In this document: positions 36,773 to 50,189 of the stretch, one piece after another
Layout: each line of letters begins with the position of its first letter
Position numbering within the stretch: the first letter of the stretch is position 1
Assembly (NCBI GenBank): GCA_009885805.1
Contig: VFJZ01000024.1
Coordinates: forward strand, 1 to 50,189
Direction of reading: 5' to 3'
DNA length: 50,189 bases
DNA from: Actinomycetota bacterium
GTDB lineage: Bacteria > Actinomycetota > Thermoleophilia > Gaiellales > F1-60-MAGs149
Notes under the pieces: model-generated
Told to the model about the DNA's origin: nothing
The model's input: only the letters and a program-made list of their open reading frames with translations
Database searches by the model: none
Program-made: the position numbers and the translations under genes

Positions 36773-37650
36773 GCGACACCGTCTCCTGCGCCGTCGACGT
36801 CGGCGATGGCCGGACCGTGACCTTCTACGTCGAGGATGGCGCTCTCGATCCCATCTCCGCGGAACTCGTCGCCGGCCGGCAGGCCAACGCCGATACCGTC
36901 GCCCTGCTCCTCGCCCTGACCGGCAGCCGCGGCTGGATCCTCGACATCGGCGCGCACCTCGGCACGGTCGGTCTCGCCTGCGCCGCTCACGGTCGTCGCG
37001 TGACGATGATCGAGGCGTCGCCGCGCAACGTCGACCTGTTGCTGCGCGCCGCCGCGCCGTTCGGCCGACGAGGCGCGGTCGTCCATGCGGCCGCCGGCGA
37101 TCACGCGGGAACAGTCACCTTCTCGGTCAACGGCCCGTTCGGGCTCGTCGGCATCGACGATCAGACGCGGGCCTACGGCGTGCTCGCCGACGTGCCGCTC
37201 GGCCGGGTCGATGATCTCGCGCCTGCCGGGCGCCTGCGTCGGTATGACGCGGTGAAGCTCGATGTCGAGGGCTACGAGGTGGCGGCGCTGCGGGGGATGC
37301 GGCGTACGCTGCGCCACCGTCCGCCGCTCCTCGTCGAGTCGAACGGCCACACGCTGCATCTCTACGGCGAGTCGCCAAGGACGCTGCGGGCGGCTCTGCT
37401 GGCACTCGGGTACGAGGTGTTCGAGATCCACGGCCGTGAGCTACGGTCGACGACCCCTGACACCGTGCAGGTTCCGGTGCTGATCGACGTGCTCGCGTTG
37501 CAGCCCGGTGCCGCCGCGCCGCCGCTGTACTCGTTCGTCCCACCCGCCACCGCCGAGCAGACCCAGGCCGAGATCGCCGCTGCCGACCACTCAATGCCGG
37601 AACAGGTGGCGCACCTGAGCCGGGTGACCGAACCTACCGACCCCGGCTGA
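36769..37650 (+). CDS. FkbM-family methyltransferase
   Basis: 293 residues. The FkbM-type SAM fold is visible: WILDIGAHLGTVGLACAAHG (motif I), RRVTMIEASPRNVDLLLRAA, AAGDHAGTVTFSV, and the diagnostic YDAVKLDVEGYEVAALRGM (DxExxE-like block) followed by RPPLLVESNG. Such enzymes O-methylate sugars in polysaccharides or natural products. The position directly after rfbC suggests rhamnose or a linked sugar as acceptor, which is inference. GTG start overlaps rfbC. The end overlaps the convergent rfbA by 17 bp. Confidence 0.85.
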   Translation: MSDTVSCAVDVGDGRTVTFYVEDGALDPISAELVAGRQANADTVALLLALTGSRGWILDIGAHLGTVGLACAAHGRRVTMIEASPRNVDLLLRAAAPFGRRGAVVHAAAGDHAGTVTFSVNGPFGLVGIDDQTRAYGVLADVPLGRVDDLAPAGRLRRYDAVKLDVEGYEVAALRGMRRTLRHRPPLLVESNGHTLHLYGESPRTLRAALLALGYEVFEIHGRELRSTTPDTVQVPVLIDVLALQPGAAAPPLYSFVPPATAEQTQAEIAAADHSMPEQVAHLSRVTEPTDPG

Positions 37651-38503
37651 GCGTCGCGACGTAGGCGCCGTACGACGAGTTGCCGAGCCCAGCCGCCAGC
37701 CGTTCGACCTGCTCGGCGTCGATGTAGCCCATCCGGAACGCGACCTCTTCCAGGCACGCGATGCGTAGCGCCTGCCGGTGCTGCAGCACCTGGATGAAGT
37801 GGGATGCCTCCAGCAGCGAGTCGTGGGTGCCGGTGTCGAGCCACGCCATGCCGCGACCGAGTTCGACCAGTCGCGCGCGTCCGTCCTGGACATAGACGTT
37901 GTTGACGTCCGTGATCTCGAGTTCGCCGCGTGGCGACGGCTCGAGGTCGCGAGCGATGTCGAGCACGGTGTTGTCGTACAGGTAGAGGCCGGTCACCGCG
38001 AGGTTGGAGCGCGCCATCGCTGGCTTCTCGTCGATCCACGTGATCCGCCCTGAGGGGTCCGCCTCGGCGACGCCGTACCGCTCCGGATCGGACACGCGGT
38101 AACCGAACAGCGTGCACCCGTCGACGCGTGCGACCTCCGCCTGGAGCGTCTCGGCAAGTCCCTCGCCGTGGAAGATGTTGTCGCCGAGGACGAGTGCCGC
38201 CGTATCGCCGCCGACGTGGGCCCGACCGACGATGAACGCGTCGGCAAGGCCGCGGGGCCGGTCCTGCTCCGCGTAGGAGAGGGCGATCCCGAACTGCGAC
38301 CCGTCGCCGAGCAGGCGTCGGAAAAGCGGCAGGTCGTGCGGTGTCGAGATGACGAGGATGTCCCGCACGCCGGCCAGCATCAGCGTGGAGAGCGGGTAGT
38401 AGACCATCGGCTTGTCGTACACGGGGAGCAGCTGCTTGGAGATGCCGAGCGTGGCCGGGTGGAGGCGAGTGCCGGCGCCGCCGGCGAGAACGATTCCCTT
38501 CAC
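37634..38503 (-). CDS. rfbA: Glucose-1-phosphate thymidylyltransferase
   Basis: 289 residues, normal for RmlA. It makes dTDP-glucose from glucose-1-phosphate and dTTP. Nucleotide-binding motif GGAGTRLHPATLGISKQLLP at the N-terminus, YDKPMVYYPLSTLMLAGVRD, LVLGDNIFHGEGLA with the metal-binding Asp, WIDEKPAMARSNLAVTGLYL, and AWLDTGTHDSLLEASHFIQV. GTG 38503 overlaps the rfbB stop, so rfbB-rfbA form one transcript. Confidence 0.96.
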   Translation of the reverse strand: MKGIVLAGGAGTRLHPATLGISKQLLPVYDKPMVYYPLSTLMLAGVRDILVISTPHDLPLFRRLLGDGSQFGIALSYAEQDRPRGLADAFIVGRAHVGGDTAALVLGDNIFHGEGLAETLQAEVARVDGCTLFGYRVSDPERYGVAEADPSGRITWIDEKPAMARSNLAVTGLYLYDNTVLDIARDLEPSPRGELEITDVNNVYVQDGRARLVELGRGMAWLDTGTHDSLLEASHFIQVLQHRQALRIACLEEVAFRMGYIDAEQVERLAAGLGNSSYGAYVATLSRGR

Positions 38504-39516
38504 GCGCCGGCCCGGCCGCCGTAGTTGGCGGCGACGTAGTCGGTGTAGTCCGCCCCCGCCTGGATGGCGCGCCACCACGGCTCGTTGGCGCGGTACCACT
38601 CGACGGTCGCGCGCAGGCCGTCCTCGAAGCCAATCGTCGGCGCCCAGCCGAGGGCGCGCAGCTTCGCGCAGTCGATGGCGTAGCGGCGATCGTGCCCGGG
38701 CCGGTCGGCAACGTGCTGGATCAGTTCATCGTCGGCCTCGAGGATCTCGACCACGCGCCGCGCCGTATCGAGGTTGACTTGCGCCTGCTCGGAGCCGCAG
38801 TTGTAGGCCTCGCCGGCAACGCCGCGGAGCAGTACGGTCTCGATGCCGGCGGCGAAGTCGGAGACGTGGGTGAACTCGCGCACCTGGAGGCCGTCGCCGT
38901 AGATCGGCAGCGGTCGGCCCTCGATCGTGTTGATGGCGAGCACCGGGATGAACTTCTCCGGGAACTGGTGCGGCCCGTAGGCGTTCGCGCCGCGCACGAT
39001 CGTCGCGTCGATGACGTACGTCCGCACGTAGGCCGCCACCAGCAACTCAGCGGCGGCCTTCGCCGCCGCGTAGGGCGAGGAGGCGTGGAGCAGGTCCGTC
39101 TCGACCGATCGGTGGGGAGCCGCGATGTCGCCGTACACCTCGTCGGTCGACACCTGGACGAAGCGCGTGCCTTCGTGTGCCGCCGCCCAGTCGAGCAACC
39201 GCTTGGTGCCGAGGATGTTCGTCGTGATGAACTCGTCGCCGCCCATGATCGAGCGGTCGACGTGCGTCTCGGCGGCGACGTTGACGATCGCGTCGCAGCC
39301 CTCCGCCGCTTCGGCGACCGCCGCCGCGTCGGCGATGTCGCCGCGCACGAACCGGTAGCGCGGATCGTCCGGGACGTCGGCGAGGTTCTCGGGTCGGCCG
39401 GCGTAGGTCAGCAGGTCGAGGTTGACGACCGTGGCGCCTGGATGGCCGTCGAGCAGACGGCGGACGAGGTGCGAGCCGATGAACCCGCAGCCGCCCGTGA
39501 CGAGGATCCGCTGCAT
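38500..39516 (-). CDS. rfbB: dTDP-glucose 4,6-dehydratase
   Basis: 338 residues, an extended short-chain dehydrogenase. NAD-binding motif VTGGCGFIGSHLVRRLLDG, acidic catalytic region VSTDEVYGDI (Thr-Asp-Glu), and YAAAKAAAELLV (YxxxK). It makes dTDP-4-keto-6-deoxyglucose. ATG start lies 6 nt after TAGGAT; CAGAGG between them could act as a weak ribosome site. First gene of the rfbB-rfbA pair, divergent from the sugar-dehydrogenase-like gene. Confidence 0.96.
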   Translation of the reverse strand: MQRILVTGGCGFIGSHLVRRLLDGHPGATVVNLDLLTYAGRPENLADVPDDPRYRFVRGDIADAAAVAEAAEGCDAIVNVAAETHVDRSIMGGDEFITTNILGTKRLLDWAAAHEGTRFVQVSTDEVYGDIAAPHRSVETDLLHASSPYAAAKAAAELLVAAYVRTYVIDATIVRGANAYGPHQFPEKFIPVLAINTIEGRPLPIYGDGLQVREFTHVSDFAAGIETVLLRGVAGEAYNCGSEQAQVNLDTARRVVEILEADDELIQHVADRPGHDRRYAIDCAKLRALGWAPTIGFEDGLRATVEWYRANEPWWRAIQAGADYTDYVAANYGGRAGA

Positions 39517-39554: not shown

Positions 39555-41612
39555 ATGGGCGGGAACAGGACGGGGATCGCCACGGCGGCGCGGGCGGTCG
39601 TCGCCGTCGCCATCGCCGCCGTCGGCCTGGTCGGGATCTGGGCCGTGTTCCGGCCCTTCCAACCCGGACCGGATCGTCTGACGGTGACCTTCGACGAGGT
39701 GCCGTACGGCGCCATGATCGGTTTGGACGTCGACGGGCGGCGCCTGACGAGCGCTCCGGCGCCGAGCGGCGGTCAGTGGGCGCAGACGCTGACCATCACG
39801 CCGATCGCCGCTGTCGGGGAGTCCGGCGGCGGCGTCCGCTTCATCTGGGACGCCGCCGCGGAGGCGCCACCGGCCGGCTGGACGATCGAGCGCGATGCCG
39901 GGCCCGCTCGCGTTCTCGGCGTCCCGGGTGTCTCCGGACCGTTTCCGATCAGTTTCGGGGACGGCCCGACGCTCGCGCTGCCGTTCGCAGTCGGGCCGGG
40001 AAACGGCAGGGCGCTCGTCGAGGGGCCTGGCGGCGCGGTCGTCGTCGACCTGTCGACACCGACTCCGAGCGGGTTCCGCGAGGTCGTGCTCGACGCCCGG
40101 CGTCTCACTCGCGGGCCAGCGACCGCGGTGATCGACGTCCCGGTCGACGCCGCCCGCGTCCGCCTCTACCCGAGCTCGGTAGCCGGCCGGGTCGTCGTGC
40201 GGCGTGCTGTCGTGACAGGCTCCCGCGAGGTCGCGTTGAGGCTGGCCGACGCGCCCGTGGGGCCCGGTCTCACCCGGATCGACGCGACCGCCTTCGACGT
40301 CGTCAGCCCCGGAGCCGCGTACATCGACGTGCCGCCATTGCCGCCGCCGCCGATGTTGCATGCCGGAAACGTCCGTGTGCTCCTCGCTGCGGCCGTCTCG
40401 TCGCTTCTGGCGATCCTCGGCGCGTTCGCCGTCGGACGGCTTCGGCGTCCGCTGCTCGTCGCCACGGGGATGACGGTCGTCGGCCTGATCGCGGCCGGCG
40501 CCGTGGCCGCACGGCTGGCGGACGACGTCCCCGGCGGGGCGCCGCTGGCTGTCGTCATTGCCGACGACGCCACGCTGGTCGCGGTGGGAAGGGCGACGAC
40601 GGATGCTGCTGCGACCTTCGCGGTCCTCCCCGACGACAGTATTCTCGTTGGCGGCAAGGGCGGGTTCGGCGGTGAGGCGGACGCCTGGATCGAACGCCTG
40701 CCGGCAGGCGGTGGTCCGGCGGTCAGGATCGGCTCGCTCCGCGTCTGCACGGAGGCCGAGCGCGGGTTGCTCGGCCTCGAGGCGAGTCGCTCGTTCGCAA
40801 CCGATCGGGTCGTCTACGCCTTCCGGACGGCCGCTGCGGCCGCCTGCGGCACCGGTCGGGCGCCCGGCACCGCGCCGACGAACGAGGTTCTGCGCCTGAC
40901 GCTCGCGCCCGACCTCGGCTCGATCGTGCGCGAAGAGGTGATCGCGACCGGGATCCCGTCCTACACCGCCGCGCACAACGCGGGTGGCCTTCGACTTGCC
41001 GAGGACGGCGCGCTGTACGTCTCGATCGGCGATAGCGGGGACGGCGCGCTCTCCCGGGAGCCGGGCTCGGTCCTTGCGAGGATCGTCCGGATACCCGCCG
41101 ACCGTCTTGCCGGCGGTGCTCCCATAGTCGCTGCCGAGTTGGCATCGATGACGTTCGCCGTCGGCTTCCGCAACCCGTTCCGGTTCGCGCTGCTGGACGC
41201 CCAGCACCTGCTGGTGAACGATGTAGGCTCGGCGCCGCCCTCGGCGGCGGAGGAGGTCAACCTGGTCGTCGAGGGCGGCGACTACGGCTGGCCCTACTTC
41301 GAGGGCCCGTCCTCCGACGATCGCTTCGCTGCGCCCTTGTGGTCCTACCCGCACAACGACGGCTGTGCGTCCACGACCGGTGGCACGATCGGGATGCAAG
41401 GCGCCTTCGGCGCCCGTGGCCGCCCCTACGTCTTCGGAGACTTCACGTGTGGTCGCCTCTACGTGCTCGACCTGGACGGCACGCACCCACGGGAACTGAC
41501 CCGGATCCGAGATCTCGACCCGCAGCTCCTGCCTGCCGAATTCCGCACGACGGCCGACGGGCGGGTGGTCGTGCTCGGCTTCGGGGGGACCGTGTACGAG
41601 ATCAGGCGCTGA
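39555..41612 (+). CDS. Membrane-anchored glucose/sorbosone dehydrogenase-like (GSDH, PQQ-type propeller) protein
   Basis: 685 residues. TM1 is near the N-terminus (ARAVVAVAIAAVGLVGIWAV). A beta-rich domain follows (~35-270). Two more helices follow (VLLAAAVSSLLAILGAFAVG, LLVATGMTVVGLIAAGAVAA, ~275-325). The C-terminal ~360 residues form the GSDH beta-propeller: LLGLEASRSFATDRVVYAFR, NAGGLRLAEDGALYVSIGDSG, FAVGFRNPFRFALL, GGDYGWPYFEG and FGDFTCGRLYVLD. The propeller is probably extracytoplasmic. Whether it binds PQQ is uncertain; many relatives have unknown activity. Its place beside rhamnose genes suggests a role in surface glycan metabolism or sensing. Confidence 0.8.
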   Translation: MGGNRTGIATAARAVVAVAIAAVGLVGIWAVFRPFQPGPDRLTVTFDEVPYGAMIGLDVDGRRLTSAPAPSGGQWAQTLTITPIAAVGESGGGVRFIWDAAAEAPPAGWTIERDAGPARVLGVPGVSGPFPISFGDGPTLALPFAVGPGNGRALVEGPGGAVVVDLSTPTPSGFREVVLDARRLTRGPATAVIDVPVDAARVRLYPSSVAGRVVVRRAVVTGSREVALRLADAPVGPGLTRIDATAFDVVSPGAAYIDVPPLPPPPMLHAGNVRVLLAAAVSSLLAILGAFAVGRLRRPLLVATGMTVVGLIAAGAVAARLADDVPGGAPLAVVIADDATLVAVGRATTDAAATFAVLPDDSILVGGKGGFGGEADAWIERLPAGGGPAVRIGSLRVCTEAERGLLGLEASRSFATDRVVYAFRTAAAAACGTGRAPGTAPTNEVLRLTLAPDLGSIVREEVIATGIPSYTAAHNAGGLRLAEDGALYVSIGDSGDGALSREPGSVLARIVRIPADRLAGGAPIVAAELASMTFAVGFRNPFRFALLDAQHLLVNDVGSAPPSAAEEVNLVVEGGDYGWPYFEGPSSDDRFAAPLWSYPHNDGCASTTGGTIGMQGAFGARGRPYVFGDFTCGRLYVLDLDGTHPRELTRIRDLDPQLLPAEFRTTADGRVVVLGFGGTVYEIRR

Positions 41613-41696: not shown

Positions 41697-42563
41697 TCAG
41701 GAGGAGGGCTGCAGGCCGCGCCCGCCGTCACCGTCCGACGCGAGATACTCGGCAAGTGCCTCCTGCCATGGCGCGAGCGCCGGCAGGCCGAGCGCATCGG
41801 TCCGCGACCGGCCGAGCAGACCGTTCGGCGGTCGCAGCGCCCGCCCAGGAGCCTGCTCCGTCGCCGTCCGCTCGACCGTCGCCCTGATATGCGCGAGCCG
41901 CAGCGTCTCGACAGCCAGGTCCCACCAGGTGCAGGCCCCCGCGTTGGTGAGGTGGACGACCCCTGCCGGTCGTCCCTGCACCACTGCGCCGAGTGCGACG
42001 GCCAGGTGTCGACACGAGGTCGGAGCGATGAACTGGTCGGCGACGACGGCGAGCGGACGACCGGCGCGGGCACCCGCGAGGATGCGCGCCACGAAGCTCC
42101 CGCCCTTGGCGCGGCTGCCAGCGTCGCCGTAGAGGGCGGACGTGCGTACGATGGTGGCCGTGGGGGCGACGGCCATCGTCGCAAACTCGCCGGCGAGTTT
42201 GGAAGCGCCGTAGACGTTGATCGGTCGCGGTGGGTCGTCTTCCTCGTACGGGCGGGCGGCGGTACCGGAAAAGACGTAGTTCGTCGACAGGTAGATGACG
42301 TGCGCGCCGGCGGCGGCCGCCGCCCGCGCGACGCAAGCAGCCCCGACCGCGTTGACGGCGAATGCGCCGGCCATCCCCGCATCCTCGGCCCCGTCGACGT
42401 CGACGAACGCCGCGCAGTTGACGACAACGTCCGGGCGCGCGCCGGCAACCGCCGCCGCGATCCCGGCGCGGTCGGTGACATCGGCGTCGATGGGCACTGC
42501 GCCGCTCGCCGCGATGAGGGCACGGCCGAGCTGGCCTCGTGCCCCAGTGACCGCGATCCGCAC
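41697..42563 (-). CDS. rfbD: dTDP-4-dehydrorhamnose reductase
   Basis: 288 residues, last step to dTDP-L-rhamnose. Rossmann motif VTGARGQLGRALI at the N-terminus, PDVVVNCAAFVDVDGAED, YLSTNYVFSGTAARPYEEDD, INVYGASKLAGEF with the YxxxK pair, and LRPPNGLLGRSRTDALGLPA. The GTG start lies 6 nt after TACGAT. It is separated from rfbB by the GSDH gene and convergent with it. With rfbA, rfbB and rfbC it completes the pathway within 6.4 kb. Confidence 0.93.
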   Translation of the reverse strand: MRIAVTGARGQLGRALIAASGAVPIDADVTDRAGIAAAVAGARPDVVVNCAAFVDVDGAEDAGMAGAFAVNAVGAACVARAAAAAGAHVIYLSTNYVFSGTAARPYEEDDPPRPINVYGASKLAGEFATMAVAPTATIVRTSALYGDAGSRAKGGSFVARILAGARAGRPLAVVADQFIAPTSCRHLAVALGAVVQGRPAGVVHLTNAGACTWWDLAVETLRLAHIRATVERTATEQAPGRALRPPNGLLGRSRTDALGLPALAPWQEALAEYLASDGDGGRGLQPSS

Positions 42564-42575
42564 GCCCGCATCGTA
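42564..42575 (-). promoter_or_regulatory. TACGAT box 6 nt before rfbD GTG
   Basis: The minus strand reads TACGAT at 42575-42570, GCGGGC, then GTG 42563. Another TAGGAT on the plus strand (42614-42619) lies 35 nt before the divergent methyltransferase ATG. Confidence 0.4.
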
Positions 42576-42654
42576 CCGGGACGCAGGGCAGCGATGCCAT
42601 CGATGCCGGTCGCTAGGATTCGACGGCACCTCGTCGAAGGGCCCGACCGGCACC

Positions 42655-43683
42655 ATGCACCATCCACCACCCAGGCCACCTGCGCGACGACTGGCCGCGC
42701 TCGTCCTGCGGCCCTTCATCCGCCCCTTCTTCAGACGACTCGAGGCGCGCGTCGGTCCGCTCGACGCGCGCCTCGCCGCCGCCGAGGCCGGCATCGCCGC
42801 GCTCGGCGACGCGCCGCCTGCCACCGCCGGGCTGGACGACGCGATCATCTCCGCACTGGTCGACGCGGTTGCGGCGTCGAACGCCGCCTCCCGGATCGTC
42901 CGCCGCGAGCACGAGGCGCTGGCCGCGCGGATCGCCGAGGTCACCAGCAGCGCATCGATCCAGGCCATCACGGCGGCGACCGGTGATCTCCGGGCGTACG
43001 TCGACCGGGTTGCGATCCGCTCTGACGAGCGCGACGTCGCCGTCCACGGGCGCTTCCGCCAGATCGAGGAACGGGGCGAGTTCATCCGCCGCGAGGTCCT
43101 GTACGAAGCTCGGTACCTGCATGGTGAGACGGCGGTTGCGCCGTCGGCCGGAGCCGACGCCGACGCGCCTGGCCCCTGGCCCTCGCCCCTGCGTGTCAAC
43201 GTCGGGGCCGGCCATGTCCCGCGGGAGGGGTTCGTCAACGTCGACCTGCGGCCCCTGCCGGGCATCGATGTCGTCGCAGACGCGCGGCGGCTGCCGTTCG
43301 CCGCCGGATCGGTGAACGAGTTGGTCGCGGAGCACGTCGTCGAGCACTTCCCGGTCGAGGAGCTCCGCCGCGTCGTGCTGCCGCACTGGCGACGGGTGCT
43401 CTCGCCGGGCGGGACGCTCCGGCTCGTGCTCCCGGACGGCGAGGCCCTGCTCGCGGCGTATGGCGACGGAACGATGACGTTCGCCGAGCTGGCGCGGGTG
43501 ACGTACGGCGATCAGGAGTATGAGGGTGACTTCCACTACGCGATGCACGCCCGGGACGGGTTGGCCGCCCTCCTCACCGAAGTCGGCTTCGCCGATCCGC
43601 GGTGCGTCGCGACCGGGAGGCGGAACGGGCTCGCATTCGAGATGGAGTTCGAGGCGCGCGCGCCCGCAGCGGACGAGCGCTGA
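42655..43683 (+). CDS. SAM-dependent methyltransferase with N-terminal coiled-coil module
   Basis: 342 residues. The N-terminal ~140 residues are helical and begin LRPFIRPFFRRLEARVGPLD, a segment repeated at the start of the gene at 48238. The catalytic part has VNVGAGHVPREGFVNVDLRP (motif I), IDVVADARRLPFAAGSVNEL, AEHVVEHFPVEELRRVVLPH and RVLSPGGTLRLVLPDGEALL. This last set is the pattern of predicted methyltransferases found in polysaccharide clusters. The substrate is unknown. TGATG overlap with the next glycosyltransferase puts it at the head of a five-gene operon. Confidence 0.8.
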   Translation: MHHPPPRPPARRLAALVLRPFIRPFFRRLEARVGPLDARLAAAEAGIAALGDAPPATAGLDDAIISALVDAVAASNAASRIVRREHEALAARIAEVTSSASIQAITAATGDLRAYVDRVAIRSDERDVAVHGRFRQIEERGEFIRREVLYEARYLHGETAVAPSAGADADAPGPWPSPLRVNVGAGHVPREGFVNVDLRPLPGIDVVADARRLPFAAGSVNELVAEHVVEHFPVEELRRVVLPHWRRVLSPGGTLRLVLPDGEALLAAYGDGTMTFAELARVTYGDQEYEGDFHYAMHARDGLAALLTEVGFADPRCVATGRRNGLAFEMEFEARAPAADER

Positions 43684-44795
43684 TGCCACGCACCGTCGCC
43701 GTGTGGTCGGGTGCTGTCGTCGCCGGCGACGCGATCTCGAACAGCCTCCGCGACAAGCTGGTGGCGATCCGTCGCTGGGATCCGGCCGGGTCGACGGTCC
43801 GCGCGGTCGGCATCGCACAGGGCTCGGATGGATCGGTGCCGGGCATCAACGTCTACGCCGATGCGGCGTCCGCTCTGCGCAGCGGCATCGTCGGCGAGGC
43901 CGACCTTCACATCTTCGAATACGGCATCTACTACGAGCTCTTCGACCTCGCGCTGCTCGTGCCCCGCGAGCGGCTCGCCGCCGTCTACCACAACGTGACG
44001 CCGGCGGCTCTCATCGACGACCCGGCCGTGCGAGTTCGCGTCGAGCGGGCGCTCGAGCGGCGGGAGAACCTCCGCCACGCGCGGCGGATCTTCTGCGACA
44101 GCGCGTTCAATGCCGATGACCTGCGGTCGCTCGGCTTCTCCGAAGAGGCGCTGAGGGTGCAACCCCTGCCACCGGCGATCGTCGCCGCGCCCGGCGACCG
44201 TCGCGGCCTGCCCACCATCCTCTTCGTGGGCCGGATCGTGCCGGCGAAGGGGATCGCCGACCTCGTCGCGGCGGCCGACGACCTCCGCGCGACGGGTCGA
44301 GCCTTCCGGCTCGCGGTGGCAGGGAACCGGCGCCTCAGCGACGCGGATCTGATCGCGTCGCTCTTGGCGCGGCCCGGGATCGACGTCATCGAGTCGCCGT
44401 CCGATTCCGAGCTCGCTGCGTTGTACGCGGCCGCCGACATCGTCGTCATCCCGTCGTACCACGAGGGCTACTGCGTCCCCGCGCTCGAGGCGCTGCTCGC
44501 GGGCTGCCAGGTCGTCGCCTCCGACGCCGGCAACCTCCCCGACCTCGTCGGCCCGGTCGGCCAGTGCGTGCCCGTCGGCGACGTGAGTGCGATCAGCGCC
44601 GCGCTGGCCGCGGCGCTGGATGCCGTGCCGGCGGTGCGAGCCGGCGCCGATGTCGTGGTGCCCGTGACGGGCGGGACGCTCGACGGCGCAGCCCGGCGCG
44701 CGCGGCTGGATGACCTGCGGCTGGAGACGGCCCGGTCGACGGTCGACCGGGCGTTCCTGGACGACGTCCATGACCTGCTGGGGTCGCCGGCGTGA
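43683..44795 (+). CDS. Glycosyltransferase family 4-like
   Basis: 370 residues with the GT-B fold. The C-terminal donor-binding half is clear: TILFVGRIVPAKGIADLVAA, a nucleotide-sugar contact region, and PSYHEGYCVPALEALLAGCQ, the E-x7-E motif of GT4 enzymes. The N-terminal half (TVAVWSGAVVAGDAISNSLR, ADLHIFEYGIYYELFD) binds the acceptor. It transfers a nucleotide-activated sugar to a growing glycan in the cytoplasm; the sugar is unknown. It overlaps both neighbours by a few bases. Confidence 0.87.
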   Translation: MPRTVAVWSGAVVAGDAISNSLRDKLVAIRRWDPAGSTVRAVGIAQGSDGSVPGINVYADAASALRSGIVGEADLHIFEYGIYYELFDLALLVPRERLAAVYHNVTPAALIDDPAVRVRVERALERRENLRHARRIFCDSAFNADDLRSLGFSEEALRVQPLPPAIVAAPGDRRGLPTILFVGRIVPAKGIADLVAAADDLRATGRAFRLAVAGNRRLSDADLIASLLARPGIDVIESPSDSELAALYAAADIVVIPSYHEGYCVPALEALLAGCQVVASDAGNLPDLVGPVGQCVPVGDVSAISAALAAALDAVPAVRAGADVVVPVTGGTLDGAARRARLDDLRLETARSTVDRAFLDDVHDLLGSPA

Positions 44796-47700
44796 CCGCG
44801 CCGACGATCTCGGTCGTCGTCTGCACGACGCCCGGCCGCGAGGCCTCGCTGCAGCGCACCCTGGCGGGCCTCCGGCACCAGCGGACGAGTGGGTTCGAAG
44901 TGGTCGTCGTCGGGTCCGGGTTCGACCATGGCGGCGCTCCGGAGGGGCTCCCCGACGACGTCGTCGCGTGCGGCGTCGCCGAGCGAAACCTGAGCGCTGC
45001 TCGCAACGCCGGTGTCCGGGCCGCCGCCGGCGCGCTCGTCGCCTTCATCGATGACGACGCCGTGCCCGAACCGACCTGGCTGGACGTCCTGGCCGGCTCC
45101 TTCTCTGATCCGGAGGTCGCCGCCGCCGGTGGGCCGGTCCTCGATCACACCGGAGTCGCGCTACAGGCCCGGTACAGCCTCGTCAACGCGCTCGGCGAGG
45201 CGCGCGTGCAATTCGAGGGCGGGAACCCATCAGCGCTGCGCGCCTCGCCAGGCAGCGACTGGATCGTCTACCCGATCGGGACGAGCGCCATGTTCCGGCG
45301 CGACATCCTTGCCGCCATCGGCGGCTTCGACGAGGAGTTCGAGTACTACCTCGACGAGGCCGACGTCTGCCGGAGGCTCGTCGATCGGGGCTGGGTCGTG
45401 CAGGCGCTCGACGAAGGGCACGTGCTGCACGGATTCCTGCCGAGCGTCTTGCGGTCCGCCGATCGCGTGCTCACCGACCGCTTCAGCGTTCTCAAGAACC
45501 GCTGCTACTTCGCACTGCGCCACGGCATCGAGCGGCACGGGTTCGTGGGCTTGATGGACGACCTCGGGCGCTTCGCGGATCATCACCGTGCAGACTGCCG
45601 ATTCCACGTCGACGGCGGGCGTCTCGACCGTGACGGGCCCGCCCGGCTGGAGGAACAGATCGACCGTGGCTACGCCGCCGGGCAGGCAGCGGCGGCGCGG
45701 GGACCGCGCCTTCGCGACCCGGAATGGTTTGCGGCGCCGGCGACGGTGCGGCCCTTCGCGACGGTGCGACGAGCGGACGCCCTGCACGTCGCTCTGCTCG
45801 CCCCGGAGTGGGCGCCGGCCCGGCTGAACGGCATCTCGCGGGTGATCGTGAACCTGGCGGTCGGCCTCGCCGACCGGGGGCACGATGTGCGCGTTCTGAC
45901 CCCTGCAGTTGGCGATGAGAGCCTCGACTTCGAAGACGGCGTGTGGGTCCACCGCGTCCCCGCGATCGTCGCCGAGCAGGCCCTGCCCGACGGGCTCGCT
46001 GTGCCCGAACACCTCGTGCCACAGACCCTCGCGTACGCGGCGAGCCTCGCACGCGTCCACGATCGGTGGCCGGTCGACGTCGTCCAGGTTCCCAACTGGG
46101 ACTCGCCGGGCATCGGGGTGATGGCCGCAGGCGGGCACCGCACGGTCCTCGGCCTGTACACGCCGCTCCGCCAGCTCGTCGCGACCGACCCGCGTATTCC
46201 CGCGAACGACCGCGTGATCGGCGAGCTGGAGGCGCTCGAATTGGTGTCGTTCCGCTGCGCCACGGCGGTCCTCGCCTGCGGGGAGCCGATCGTGGACGAC
46301 GTTGCGGATGCCTACGGCGTCGACCTGCGCTCCCGTCCCCTCGGCCTCGTCCCGCACGGGATCGAGGACGCCGCGCCAGATCGTGTGCGGGCCTCGGGTG
46401 ATCCAGCTGTTCGGATCCTCTTCGTCGGTCGGCTCGAGCCACGCAAGGGGGTCGACGAGCTGCTTGCGGCGGCGCCGGCGATACTCGAGGCGCAGCCGAT
46501 GGTAGAGCTCGTGCTTGTCGGCGACGCGACCGGCAGCACGCCGCGCGGCAGCACGTACCCGGCGGAGTGGGCAGCGTCGGCCGGTTCCGATCGCGACCGC
46601 GTCCGGTTCGCGGGGCCGGTCGACGACGACGAACTCGCGCGCTACTACGCCGATGCCGACATCGTCGTCGTGCCGTCACGCTTCGAGTCGTTCGGCCTGA
46701 CCGTGCTGGAGGCGATGCGCGCCGGCGTCCCAGTCGTCGTCACGGCGACCGGTGAGATGCAGCACATCGTCGCCGAGGCCGCCTGCGGGGCCGTCGTGCC
46801 GCCGCTTGAGCCCGGTGCGCTCGCGGCCGCGCTGATCCGTCTCGCCGGCGACGCCGGCGAGCGGCGCCGCCTCGGCGCCGCCGGGCGGGCGCGCTTCGCC
46901 GCCCGCTATACGCGCGAGCGGATGGCAGCCGACGTCGAGGCGTTCTACCGGACGATCTGCGACCGGCACGAGCGTGGCACCGGCATCGTCTCCGCCGCCG
47001 ACGAGTCCGCCGTCACGGTGGCGGAGGACCTCTCGCCGCTCCTGTGCTGTCCGATCTGCCACGGTGCGCTCGACGTAGCGGCGGCGATCACCGTTGCCGG
47101 GCGGCCGTACGAGGGCGTCGCGACGTGCCCTGGCTGCGCCGTCACCGCCGCCGTGATCGCTGACGGCCGCTGGGACTTCCACCGGCGCGGCGAGGGCGGT
47201 GCGACAGTCGGCACCGTCGACCTGCCCGCGCTCGGCGAGCGTCGCGTCGATCCGTCCGCGCCGGAACTCGTTGCGACCGGTGACTGGCGGCGCCACGGTG
47301 ATCTGCTCGAGACCGATCGCGCGGGTGCGTACCTCGAGCTCGACGCGGTCTGCGCCGGCGCGACCGTGCTGCTTCTCCGGCACCCGCATTCGGGCATGGT
47401 GGAGCTGCGCTGCGACGGCGAGGTCCTGGCCTGCATCGACCTGTTCGAGCCGGGCGGGTCGGTGATCCTGCCGTATCGACTCTGCCCTCCCGGTGAGCCT
47501 CGTCGCCATCGTCTGCAGGTCGCCGTTACGGGCGAGCGCCATCCGGCCGCGCTCGGGTCGCAGGTCCTGGTCCGCGAGATCGTGCTGCACGCGCCGCTGG
47601 CACCGGCGGACGGGTTCGGGCCGCGACGCCCGCTGCTGCGTGGCAACCCGTACAGCCCCGTGATCACGCGCCACCTCGACCAGGCCGCACCGGGTGGGTG

Positions 47701-48238
47701 GATCCTGGAGTGCGGCGGCGGGGAGCGGCGTCGATGCGTGCCCCGGCACGTCAACTTCGAGTACCTCGCGTTCGAGTCCGCCGACGTGCTCGGGGACGGC
47801 CACGCGCTCCCCTTCTGCGACGACGTGTTCGACCTAGTCGTCTCGCAGGCGGTGCTCGAGCACCTGTACCACCCGTTCCGTGCCGTCGAGGAGATGGTGC
47901 GCGTCGCGCGCCCGGGCGGCCTGATCGTCGCCGAGGCGGCCTTCATGCAGCCGCTCCACGCGGTGCCGTCGCACTACTTCAACGTCACACCCTGGGGCAT
48001 GGCCGAGCTGTTCCGCGGTTGCGAGACCGTCGAGTCCGGCTGGTTCGGCTCGCTCTCCGGTACCGTTGCCTGGCTGATGGATGCCGCTGGTCTGCCAGAA
48101 CACCTCTCGCCGGAGGTCCTCGAGCCCGTCCGGGCGGCCTTCAGGTCGTTCGACCAGGTGATCGGCCACGACGACCTGCGGGCCGTCGCCTCGGGCGTGT
48201 ACCAGGTCGTCCGGAAGCCGGTGGCGGGACAGCGGTGA
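44792..48238 (+). CDS. Multi-domain glycan enzyme: GT2, GT4, zinc ribbon, beta module and methyltransferase
   Basis: 1148 residues in one frame. Residues 1-270 are a GT2 glycosyltransferase (ISVVVCTTPGREASLQRTLA, FIDDDAVPEP with the DDD metal motif, FDEEFEYYLDEADVCRRLVD). Residues 330-735 are a GT4 (LLAPEWAPARLNGISRVIVN, ILFVGRLEPRKGVDELLAAA, PSRFESFGLTVLEAM). Residues 750-785 are a zinc ribbon (C753xxC756 and C779xxC782, Trm112-like). Residues ~830-935 are a beta-sandwich-like module (DGEVLACIDLFEPGGS, HRLQVAVTGERHP). Residues ~950-1148 are a class I methyltransferase (LPFCDDVFDLVVSQAVLEHL, VRVARPGGLIVAEA). It would add two sugars and a methyl group on one chain, perhaps a capping reaction. 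No sign of frameshift fusion. Confidence 0.85.
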   Translation: MTAPTISVVVCTTPGREASLQRTLAGLRHQRTSGFEVVVVGSGFDHGGAPEGLPDDVVACGVAERNLSAARNAGVRAAAGALVAFIDDDAVPEPTWLDVLAGSFSDPEVAAAGGPVLDHTGVALQARYSLVNALGEARVQFEGGNPSALRASPGSDWIVYPIGTSAMFRRDILAAIGGFDEEFEYYLDEADVCRRLVDRGWVVQALDEGHVLHGFLPSVLRSADRVLTDRFSVLKNRCYFALRHGIERHGFVGLMDDLGRFADHHRADCRFHVDGGRLDRDGPARLEEQIDRGYAAGQAAAARGPRLRDPEWFAAPATVRPFATVRRADALHVALLAPEWAPARLNGISRVIVNLAVGLADRGHDVRVLTPAVGDESLDFEDGVWVHRVPAIVAEQALPDGLAVPEHLVPQTLAYAASLARVHDRWPVDVVQVPNWDSPGIGVMAAGGHRTVLGLYTPLRQLVATDPRIPANDRVIGELEALELVSFRCATAVLACGEPIVDDVADAYGVDLRSRPLGLVPHGIEDAAPDRVRASGDPAVRILFVGRLEPRKGVDELLAAAPAILEAQPMVELVLVGDATGSTPRGSTYPAEWAASAGSDRDRVRFAGPVDDDELARYYADADIVVVPSRFESFGLTVLEAMRAGVPVVVTATGEMQHIVAEAACGAVVPPLEPGALAAALIRLAGDAGERRRLGAAGRARFAARYTRERMAADVEAFYRTICDRHERGTGIVSAADESAVTVAEDLSPLLCCPICHGALDVAAAITVAGRPYEGVATCPGCAVTAAVIADGRWDFHRRGEGGATVGTVDLPALGERRVDPSAPELVATGDWRRHGDLLETDRAGAYLELDAVCAGATVLLLRHPHSGMVELRCDGEVLACIDLFEPGGSVILPYRLCPPGEPRRHRLQVAVTGERHPAALGSQVLVREIVLHAPLAPADGFGPRRPLLRGNPYSPVITRHLDQAAPGGWILECGGGERRRCVPRHVNFEYLAFESADVLGDGHALPFCDDVFDLVVSQAVLEHLYHPFRAVEEMVRVARPGGLIVAEAAFMQPLHAVPSHYFNVTPWGMAELFRGCETVESGWFGSLSGTVAWLMDAAGLPEHLSPEVLEPVRAAFRSFDQVIGHDDLRAVASGVYQVVRKPVAGQR

Positions 48239-49539
48239 TGCGATGGCTGTTGCGGGCTCTGCTCCGACCCGTGTTCGACCGGTTGGAGGCGCGCGTCGGG
48301 CCGGTCGACCGCCGCGTCACCGACCTCGAGGCACGGGTTGAGCGGATCGATGCGGCCGCGCCGGTCCAGCCTTCGTCGGACGATGTCCTCGGCCAGTGGA
48401 TCGACGATCGCTTCCGCTGCGAGCTCGCCGGCGGTGCCACATTCTACGAGCCCCTGGCAGGGCTGCTCGAGGCGGCTCACGAGTACCGGATGGAGCTGTT
48501 AGGGGGCCTTGCGCTACCGCCACTGGACGATGCCGTCTGTCTCGACTACGGGGTCGGCAGCTGGGGGTTCGCGGCGGTCTACCCGCGGCTCCACGGGTGC
48601 CGATTCGCGATCGGGATCGACATCTCGTCGGCTGCGATCGCCGAGTCCGAGCGCGTGTCGGCGGCCGGGGTCTATCCGTACGGCGATCGCTTCCAGTACC
48701 TGACGTCGAGAGGCGAGAGCCTGCCGCTACCTGACGGGACGGTCGATGTGGTCTTCAGCGGAGAGTCGATCGAGCATGTCGATGCGACAGTCGCGTTCGT
48801 CGACGAGCTCCACCGGGTGATGCGGCCGGGAGGCCATCTGGTCGTGACGACCCCGAACGCCGACGCCGAACTCTACCGACGGCGTGGCGAACGGTACTGC
48901 GTCGGTCCGGAGCACACCGCCCTGATGGGCTACGACGAGCTTGTCGCGCTGCTGAGCGAACGGTTCGCACTGGTCGAGGCGTACGGCTACTGCGCCTCCC
49001 GCTACCCGGACATCGACGCGATGGTGGGCACGACAGACGACGCCCGAGCCGCGGTGCGCACACACACCGCGCGCCCTGATCTGGCTTCGAATCTCGTGTG
49101 CCTCTTTCGTCGCCGCGACGACCGTCCCGCGCCTCGCCACCGCGTCCGCTCCTTCGACGCGACGGCGCCGGAGGTGAGGCGGTTCGGCCGCTGGAGCACG
49201 GCAACGCTCTCCGGGCCGCTGGCTGGCCTGCTGACCGAGGGCGCCGTCGGCGACTGCCTCGAGGTCGAATGTGAAGGTACGACGGCGATCGCGATCCTCT
49301 GGGCCCAACCCTGGGGCGGGCGCGCCGTCGTCGAGGTCGGCGCGCACCGCGAGGAGGTCGATCTGTACGAGCCGGTCGGAGGCTTCCGCCGCGTGCTTGT
49401 CACCGGCCTCGAACCGGGCGTCCACCGCCTGCGGGTGACGGCGACCGGAACGGCCGACCCGCGCAGCGCGGCGACGCAGGTGATCGTCTTCCGGCTGATC
49501 GCCGACCTCGCGCTGGCGAGCGATGCACAGGGCGCCTGA
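48238..49539 (+). CDS. SAM-dependent methyltransferase with coiled-coil N-terminus and C-terminal beta module
   Basis: 433 residues. The N-terminus RPVFDRLEARVGPVDRRV matches the start of the methyltransferase at 42655. The central class I domain has VCLDYGVGSWGFAAVYPRLH (motif I), FAIGIDISSAAIAESERVSA, LPLPDGTVDVVFSGESIEHV and VMRPGGHLVVTTPN. Residues ~317-425 form a beta module (EVDLYEPVGGFRRVL, LEPGVHRLRVTATGTADP) alike in pattern to that of the preceding fusion protein. The ATG overlaps the preceding stop (TGATG). It probably methylates a sugar of the same glycan; inference from context. Confidence 0.82.
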   Translation: MRWLLRALLRPVFDRLEARVGPVDRRVTDLEARVERIDAAAPVQPSSDDVLGQWIDDRFRCELAGGATFYEPLAGLLEAAHEYRMELLGGLALPPLDDAVCLDYGVGSWGFAAVYPRLHGCRFAIGIDISSAAIAESERVSAAGVYPYGDRFQYLTSRGESLPLPDGTVDVVFSGESIEHVDATVAFVDELHRVMRPGGHLVVTTPNADAELYRRRGERYCVGPEHTALMGYDELVALLSERFALVEAYGYCASRYPDIDAMVGTTDDARAAVRTHTARPDLASNLVCLFRRRDDRPAPRHRVRSFDATAPEVRRFGRWSTATLSGPLAGLLTEGAVGDCLEVECEGTTAIAILWAQPWGGRAVVEVGAHREEVDLYEPVGGFRRVLVTGLEPGVHRLRVTATGTADPRSAATQVIVFRLIADLALASDAQGA

Positions 49540-50083
49540 TCGGGTGGCTGCTCCGGAGGCGCGATCGCGGGCGATGCGAACGCACGACGCACTGCTCCGA
49601 TCCGGCGTCGGTCCGGACGGCCCGGCCGTCCGAGCCTGGTGGGTGTGGCGACGCGTTTGGGACGCGGTCGTCGCGTGTCGACGCGGGGATCTGGCCCGGT
49701 TCGAGGCGCGCACGTCCTCGCAGCACGGTGAGGACGGCATCATCGCCGAAGTGCTGCGGCGCGTATCCGTCGACGGCCCGGCCGTGGCGGTCGAGATCGG
49801 CTCCGGGGACGGGTCGGAGAACTGCACGCGGGCGCTTCTCGACAGCGGCTGGCGGACGGTTTGGATCGAGGCCGATCCTGACCGCGCGGCCGCTGCGCGC
49901 CTCGTCACCCCGGCCGCATCGGTGGTCGAGGCGCGGGTCGACGCGGCCAACATCGCCGGTCTGCTCGACGCCGCCGGCGTGCCGGCGGCGTTCGAGGTGC
50001 TCGTGATCGACATCGACGGCAACGACCACGCGGTGCTCGACCGGGTCCTCGCTCGGTCGCGTCCCCGGCTGATCGTCGCCTAG
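49523..50083 (+). CDS. FkbM-like methyltransferase, C-terminally truncated
   Basis: 186 residues. SQHGEDGIIAEVLRRVSVDG, VAVEIGSGDGSENCTRALLD (SAM motif I), WRTVWIEADPDRAAAARLVT and FEVLVIDIDGNDHAVLDRVL are typical of methyltransferases of the FkbM type in glycan clusters. The DIDGND block is normally followed by PRLIVxEYN and a further ~60-100 residues. Here translation stops right after RPRLIVA at TAG 50081-50083, and the following DNA does not continue the fold in any frame. ATG 49523 overlaps the previous gene by 17 bp; ATG 49574 is a later option. Probably a disrupted gene. Confidence 0.65.
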   Translation: MHRAPDRVAAPEARSRAMRTHDALLRSGVGPDGPAVRAWWVWRRVWDAVVACRRGDLARFEARTSSQHGEDGIIAEVLRRVSVDGPAVAVEIGSGDGSENCTRALLDSGWRTVWIEADPDRAAAARLVTPAASVVEARVDAANIAGLLDAAGVPAAFEVLVIDIDGNDHAVLDRVLARSRPRLIVA

Positions 50084-50098
50084 TGGTTCGACACGGAA

Positions 50099-50189
50099 AT
50101 GGCGTTGTGGTCGAGGTTTCTGGAGCGAGCGGGAGGCTCGCCCGTCGCGCAGGGCTTGCAGGAGCAAGTCCAAGCGGCGGGCGGGTCAC
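50099..50189 (+). CDS. Start of an unidentified open frame (partial)
   Basis: ATG 50099 opens a frame, MALWSRFLERAGGSP then VAQGLQEQVQAAGGS, that runs off the window end. It starts 15 bp after the premature stop of the FkbM-like gene. I do not recognise it. It could be the beginning of a transposase or other inserted gene, or a chance frame. Confidence 0.3.
   Translation, partial: MALWSRFLERAGGSPVAQGLQEQVQAAGGS

Follow-up and report, generated by a model that had tools for sequence, protein, structure and literature searches.

Methyl caps terminate polysaccharide chains in E. coli O8/O9a and in Aquifex, where they are read by the Wzt_C domain (PMC3482155, PMC9445017). In Klebsiella O7 and O12, the terminators are located on the same polypeptide chain as the glycosyltransferases (PMC11231755). 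A separate line of work concerns Trm112, a zinc-ribbon partner of methyltransferases, whose bacterial function a 2017 review (PMC5372719) described as unknown. Our literature search found no report naming Trm112 together with a glycosyltransferase, a methyltransferase, and polysaccharide. The locus described here brings these elements together in one open reading frame (ORF).

The window, meaning the whole stretch of 50,189 nucleotides that was analyzed, is one entire contig of a 3.56 Mb assembly of 101 contigs. Its polysaccharide part contains the features below, in which comparisons refer to related loci in a Burkholderiales genome (L062) and in Polaromonas (L048).

37634..39516, minus strand: rmlA and rmlB, dTDP-L-rhamnose supply (assigned by eye from the sequence)
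41697..42600, minus strand: rmlD-like gene, start approximate (assigned by eye from the sequence)
42655..43683, plus strand: MT1, a methyltransferase with a helical N-terminus, start MHHPPP; 34% over 317 aa to its L062 ortholog
43683..44795, plus strand: separate GT4 glycosyltransferase, overlapping MT1 (TGATG) and the fusion ORF (GTGA)
44792..48238, plus strand: GT2-GT4-ribbon-beta-methyltransferase fusion ORF, 1148 aa (ORF calling, Pfam, GC3)
44792..45430, plus strand: GT2 domain, residues ~1-213, DXD-type motif FIDDDA; PF00535 E 5e-13
45782..46975, plus strand: GT4 domain, residues ~331-728; FESFGLTVLEAM, E-x7-E type
47018..47188, plus strand: putative Trm112-like zinc ribbon, residues ~743-799; CPIC...CPGC
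47219..47602, plus strand: beta module, putative CE2_N-like beta-sandwich, residues ~810-937; low-confidence model
47654..48235, plus strand: class I SAM methyltransferase, residues ~955-1148; Methyltransf_11 PF08241 E 6.5e-11, Foldseek
48238..49539, plus strand: MT-beta protein with a second copy of the beta module; 40% to the L048 MT-beta
49523..50083, plus strand: FkbM-type methyltransferase gene; PF05050 E 4e-4, L062 FkbM E 5e-14

Two further observations concern this gene group. A PQQ-type sugar dehydrogenase-like protein, recognized by eye, is encoded at 39555-41612, inside the rml/polysaccharide genes. The FkbM-type gene has an in-frame stop at 50081-50083 beyond which the frame continues (49523-50189), reflecting either truncation or an error at the contig end. 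The polysaccharide part of the window showed no Wzm/Wzt gene; the same genome encodes Wzm and Wzt_C on a different contig.

The fusion protein and its modules

The fusion ORF runs from a GTG start at 44792 to a TGA stop at 48236-48238, with 1148 codons uninterrupted, and its GC3 is 0.80-0.96 in each 82-codon block, including at the GT4/ribbon junction. The GTGA overlap at its 5' end and the TGATG overlap at its 3' end are operon-like, as in genes that are translationally coupled, here putatively to both neighbors. The single polypeptide of 1148 aa proposed in the initial annotation was confirmed and is uniformly coding. Its division into five modules held firmly for the GT2, GT4, and methyltransferase domains, all above Pfam cut-offs, whereas the ribbon and beta module were recognized only via homologs, since in the protein's own sequence the Trm112p match lies below cut-off and the beta module has no Pfam match.

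For the GT2 domain, PF00535 scored 49.7 bits against a curated cut-off of 23.3, and a DXD-type motif, FIDDDAVPEP, lies near residues 85-94. Both PF00534 (E 5e-34; 117.7 bits against a cut-off of 26.4) and PF13439 (E 4e-16) exceeded their curated cut-offs in the GT4 domain, which has an E-x7-E type motif, SRFESFGLTVLEAM, near residues 629-642. Foldseek matched this domain of the full-length model to GT-B structures of GT4, confirming the GT-B fold. The key motifs of the glycosyltransferases and the methyltransferase are intact. Elsewhere, the same genome encodes a second GT2-GT4 fusion of ~790 aa (L007, G000:C35:62824-64965).

The methyltransferase domain (PF08241, 43.2 bits against a curated cut-off of 21.2) is Rossmann-like, with Foldseek matches down to E 1.4e-8. 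Its nearest structures are class I methyltransferases, including the sugar O-methyltransferases RebM and AtmM and also Hvo_0019 (6f5z), which was solved together with archaeal Trm112. The domain carries motif I as ILECGGGERRR, an acidic E at FEY, GDGHALPF, and QPLH..P.HYFN.T. Motif I had been feared to be atypical, but an alignment of ten relatives revealed (D/E)xG(G/A)GxR, or a near variant, to be the norm for this family, and G243, E256 as the acidic residue after strand 2 (query numbering), and the QP.H..P.H..N.T stretch are invariant in the 10 sequences. The idea of a methyltransferase dead owing to motif I is thus rejected, and the normal motif together with the class I structural matches makes a SAM pocket likely.

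The ribbon consists of two CxxC pairs (residues ~753-774). Taken by itself it is marginal, matching PF03966 (Trm112p) at E 0.09-0.026, under the curated cut-off. At the ribbon position, the L062 ortholog matched NF038101 Trm112 at E 5.5e-7, likewise under that model's curated cut-off, and PDB chain 6zxw_H at 0.003. It is through this ortholog that the ribbon is predicted to be Trm112-like, and that the earlier suggestion of such a ribbon in cis with a methyltransferase found support. All four cysteines persist in the fusion protein and L062 but are missing from L048 and from a Burkholderia protein (L044), so zinc is dispensable in some relatives. For the structure models, rows from plasmid records were left out of the input alignment. 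In the C-terminal model (mean pLDDT 62), the ribbon (~81-91) and the methyltransferase are confident and the beta module is poor; the full-length model (pTM 0.42) is too poor for domain contacts.

The next gene, MT-beta, holds the beta module a second time (E 2.4e-5, match at 49144-49518), and the module also matches proteins of secreted or membrane-anchored appearance in other genomes of the same phylum, down to E 7.8e-9. Three of nine beta-family members match CE2_N (PF17996; best E 4.6e-6), the fusion's own module not among them, and the family profile matches a glycosyl hydrolase structure (PDB 3nqh) at E 0.0078. From these family matches, we infer that the module belongs to a CE2_N-like family of carbohydrate-enzyme sandwiches and that it may have a carbohydrate-binding role.

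Relatives, distribution, and the origin of the fusion

The fusion protein is part of a cassette comprising a putative coiled-coil methyltransferase, GT4, GT2-GT4, ribbon-beta-methyltransferase, and MT-beta. Versions of this cassette lie beside ABC exporters in two distant genomes, both from another phylum, with differing fusion boundaries. The first, L062, was found by profile searches in genome G789, from the order of Polaromonas, and its gene order is MT1, GT2-GT4, a four-cysteine ribbon-beta-methyltransferase, Wzm, Wzt with a Wzt_C domain (PF14524 E 6.6e-14), and FkbM; MT1 and the FkbM gene are thus common to L062 and the fusion locus. The MT1 ortholog in L062 has Pfam coiled-coil matches, and a coiled-coil is possible in MT1, which was itself checked by a crude heptad test. 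Over its full length, the fusion ORF is collinear with two adjacent L062 genes, with 36% identity to GT2-GT4 over 739 aa and 33% to ribbon-beta-methyltransferase over 402 residues. These two L062 genes share a reading frame, with one TAG and five codons between them ahead of the first ATG, and removal of a TAG stop of this type would produce the one-chain arrangement of the fusion ORF.

In Polaromonas (L048), the sole genome found by one alignment-based genome scan, the locus encodes a KpsE-, KpsM-, and KpsT-like exporter, GT4, FkbM with a long helical part, GT4-GT2-GT4, beta-methyltransferase, and MT-beta. Here GT4-GT2-GT4 is one chain of 1105 aa, with 28% identity to the fusion's GT2-GT4 over 787 positions, while beta-methyltransferase and MT-beta are separate; Wzt_C is absent from the exporter ATPase, which is KpsT-like. 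Fusion has therefore occurred at two different places in the cassette (GT4/ribbon in the window, the upstream GT4 in Polaromonas), which supports joint action of the parts. The cassette enzymes probably act as one complex.

More remote relatives were found by tblastn on plasmid records. In Burkholderia cenocepacia, L044 (NZ_CP091013.1 1697867-1722856) holds a stand-alone ribbonlike-beta-methyltransferase, and Methylovirgula (L045, 1386 aa) and Roseomonas (L046, 1514 aa) encode giants ordered MT-GT4-GT2-ribbonlike-MT. The L044 gene, with its cysteine-less ribbon, is surrounded by prophage-like genes, recognized by eye as encoding endolysin and structural proteins, and is a candidate for surface-sugar-modifying cargo. 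Within the phylum of the source genome, three loci (L064, L065, and L066) encode related methyltransferases ordered beta-like domain, ribbon, methyltransferase; in L064 and L065 the methyltransferase adjoins an MT-GT2-GT2 protein of 954 or 963 aa.

Searched with the C-terminal profile or protein, relatives bearing the beta module occurred in one of 101 near genomes and one of 296 in the source phylum, in each case the source genome itself, and in two of 349 genomes in the order and one of 398 in the phylum of Polaromonas. The MT-beta gene was limited to the source genome and Polaromonas among 398 genomes, and the exact five-module fusion to the source genome among the genomes scanned. In the species sampled, the cassette occurs rarely and patchily, the pattern that polysaccharide genes moving laterally would be expected to show. 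A phage-borne cassette was also considered and rejected: L044 had no match in phage records, and two IMG/VR scans contained no relative.

The presence of the exact fusion in a single genome bears on whether it could be accidental, a recent stop loss or an assembly base error having joined two independent enzymes into a non-functional product. The L062 relative is set apart from the fusion by a single stop codon with a short spacer, which speaks for such an event. However, GC3 is uniform and the linker is without a stop, and other cassette members are also fused in Polaromonas, pointing to a tendency to fuse; we consider an accident of this kind improbable. Concern that the fusion might be unique and caused by assembly was borne out as to its occurrence in one genome, but collinear relatives with shifted boundaries largely dispel the suspicion of an artefact, which is disfavored further by uniform GC3 and overlapping neighbors. 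The fusion protein is real and functional-looking.

Proposed function and the role of methylation

The initial annotation had two glycosyltransferases and a methyltransferase serving surface polysaccharide, and this setting is strengthened by the rml genes and by the ABC exporters beside the cassette in two genomes; chain termination by the methyl group is a separate matter, weighed below. We think it probable that the fusion protein adds sugars and then methylates the product, as a predicted cytoplasmic enzyme for an ABC-exported polysaccharide. In this proposal, a glycan-assembly enzyme would have been born by the joining of two neighboring genes. Its GT2 and GT4 domains would add two sugars onto a lipid-linked surface polysaccharide, one or both of them likely drawn from dTDP-rhamnose given the rml genes in the same stretch. 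The C-terminal class I methyltransferase would next O-methylate the newly made end, with the Trm112-like ribbon supporting, and perhaps activating, the methyltransferase and the CE2_N-like beta-sandwich holding the glycan. The products of the operon's other genes, a stand-alone GT4, MT1, MT-beta, and FkbM, would act on the same chain before export by the ABC transporter, and methylation would probably mark or cap the non-reducing end.

How strictly the methyl group would end the chain can be read in two ways. As in E. coli O8/O9a, the methyl may block the elongating hydroxyl, set chain length, and license export via the carbohydrate-binding domain of Wzt. The presence of Wzm/Wzt_C directly after the L062 cassette and also in the source genome supports such capping, as do the known methyl caps and their recognition by Wzt (PMC3482155, PMC9445017) and the Klebsiella O7/O12 precedent for glycosyltransferases and terminators in one polypeptide (PMC11231755). 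However, the Polaromonas exporter is KpsMT-like and without Wzt_C, so recognition of a cap is not a feature of the cassette in general; moreover, no extended coiled-coil ruler can be made out in the fusion protein, and a PDB search to E<=1 gave no match between its sequence and WbdD. Overall, strict termination is a real possibility that falls somewhat short of probable. Alternatively, the methyltransferase may act on a non-elongating hydroxyl within each repeat unit or side chain while growth goes on. The three or four methyltransferase genes found in one operon point to a sugar unit carrying several methyl groups rather than to a single cap, and a capsule-type exporter in Polaromonas would suit such decoration, but the cap-recognizing type of Wzt associated with L062 would not; we regard internal methylation as possible, though doubtful.

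The fusion suggests that its parts may cooperate in assembling a surface sugar chain and tagging it with methyl ahead of export, making the protein a compact single-chain case for the coupling of sugar addition, methyl marking, and export. A bolder view is that Trm112-like ribbons in bacteria activate glycan O-methyltransferases in cis, a glycan-binding beta-sandwich lying between the two, and that this protein is a self-contained unit that adds two sugars and then methylates, a methyl terminator that has no kinase and differs from WbdD. In that full form the idea is speculative and rather unlikely. Trm112-like ribbons on methyltransferases in sugar-chain loci, in the fusion locus and its relatives, nevertheless offer a testable role for bacterial Trm112.

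Comparison with known systems

Pairs and fusions of Trm112 with methyltransferases (PMC5372719) resemble the arrangement predicted here, in which a Trm112-like zinc ribbon precedes a class I methyltransferase on its N-terminal side, and the fusion's methyltransferase resembles the Trm112 partner Hvo_0019 (6f5z). However, known Trm112 partners modify RNA or release factors (PMC5372719), while the context here is glycan synthesis, and a putative beta-sandwich stands between ribbon and methyltransferase. The Methylovirgula and Roseomonas giants likewise combine GT4, GT2, a Trm112-like stretch, and the same methyltransferase family in surface-sugar loci. They differ in their GT4-GT2 order, an extra N-terminal methyltransferase, the mostly lost ribbon cysteines, and the beta module, which was not seen in them.

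WbdD of E. coli (a methyltransferase in O8, a kinase-methyltransferase in O9a) is, like the fusion's methyltransferase, a glycan methyltransferase tied to glycosyltransferases and Wzm/Wzt export. Unlike the fusion, it is separate from the glycosyltransferases and lacks the ribbon and CE2_N-like module; homology to WbdD was rejected on a PDB sequence search up to E 1. Closest in design are ORF6 of Klebsiella pneumoniae O7 and WbbB of O12, which also unite polymerizing glycosyltransferases and a chain-end terminator in an ABC-exported pathway (PMC11231755), the O7 terminator using a methyltransferase as the fusion protein has. In these proteins a long coiled-coil ruler carries the terminator at its far end, and O7 adds a kinase, whereas the fusion has a C-terminal methyltransferase, lacks a kinase and any evident ruler, and carries the ribbon and beta module in addition. 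The fusion of transferase and terminator is thus already known from Klebsiella O7 and O12; what is new is a kinase-free set with a Trm112-like and CE2_N-like pair.
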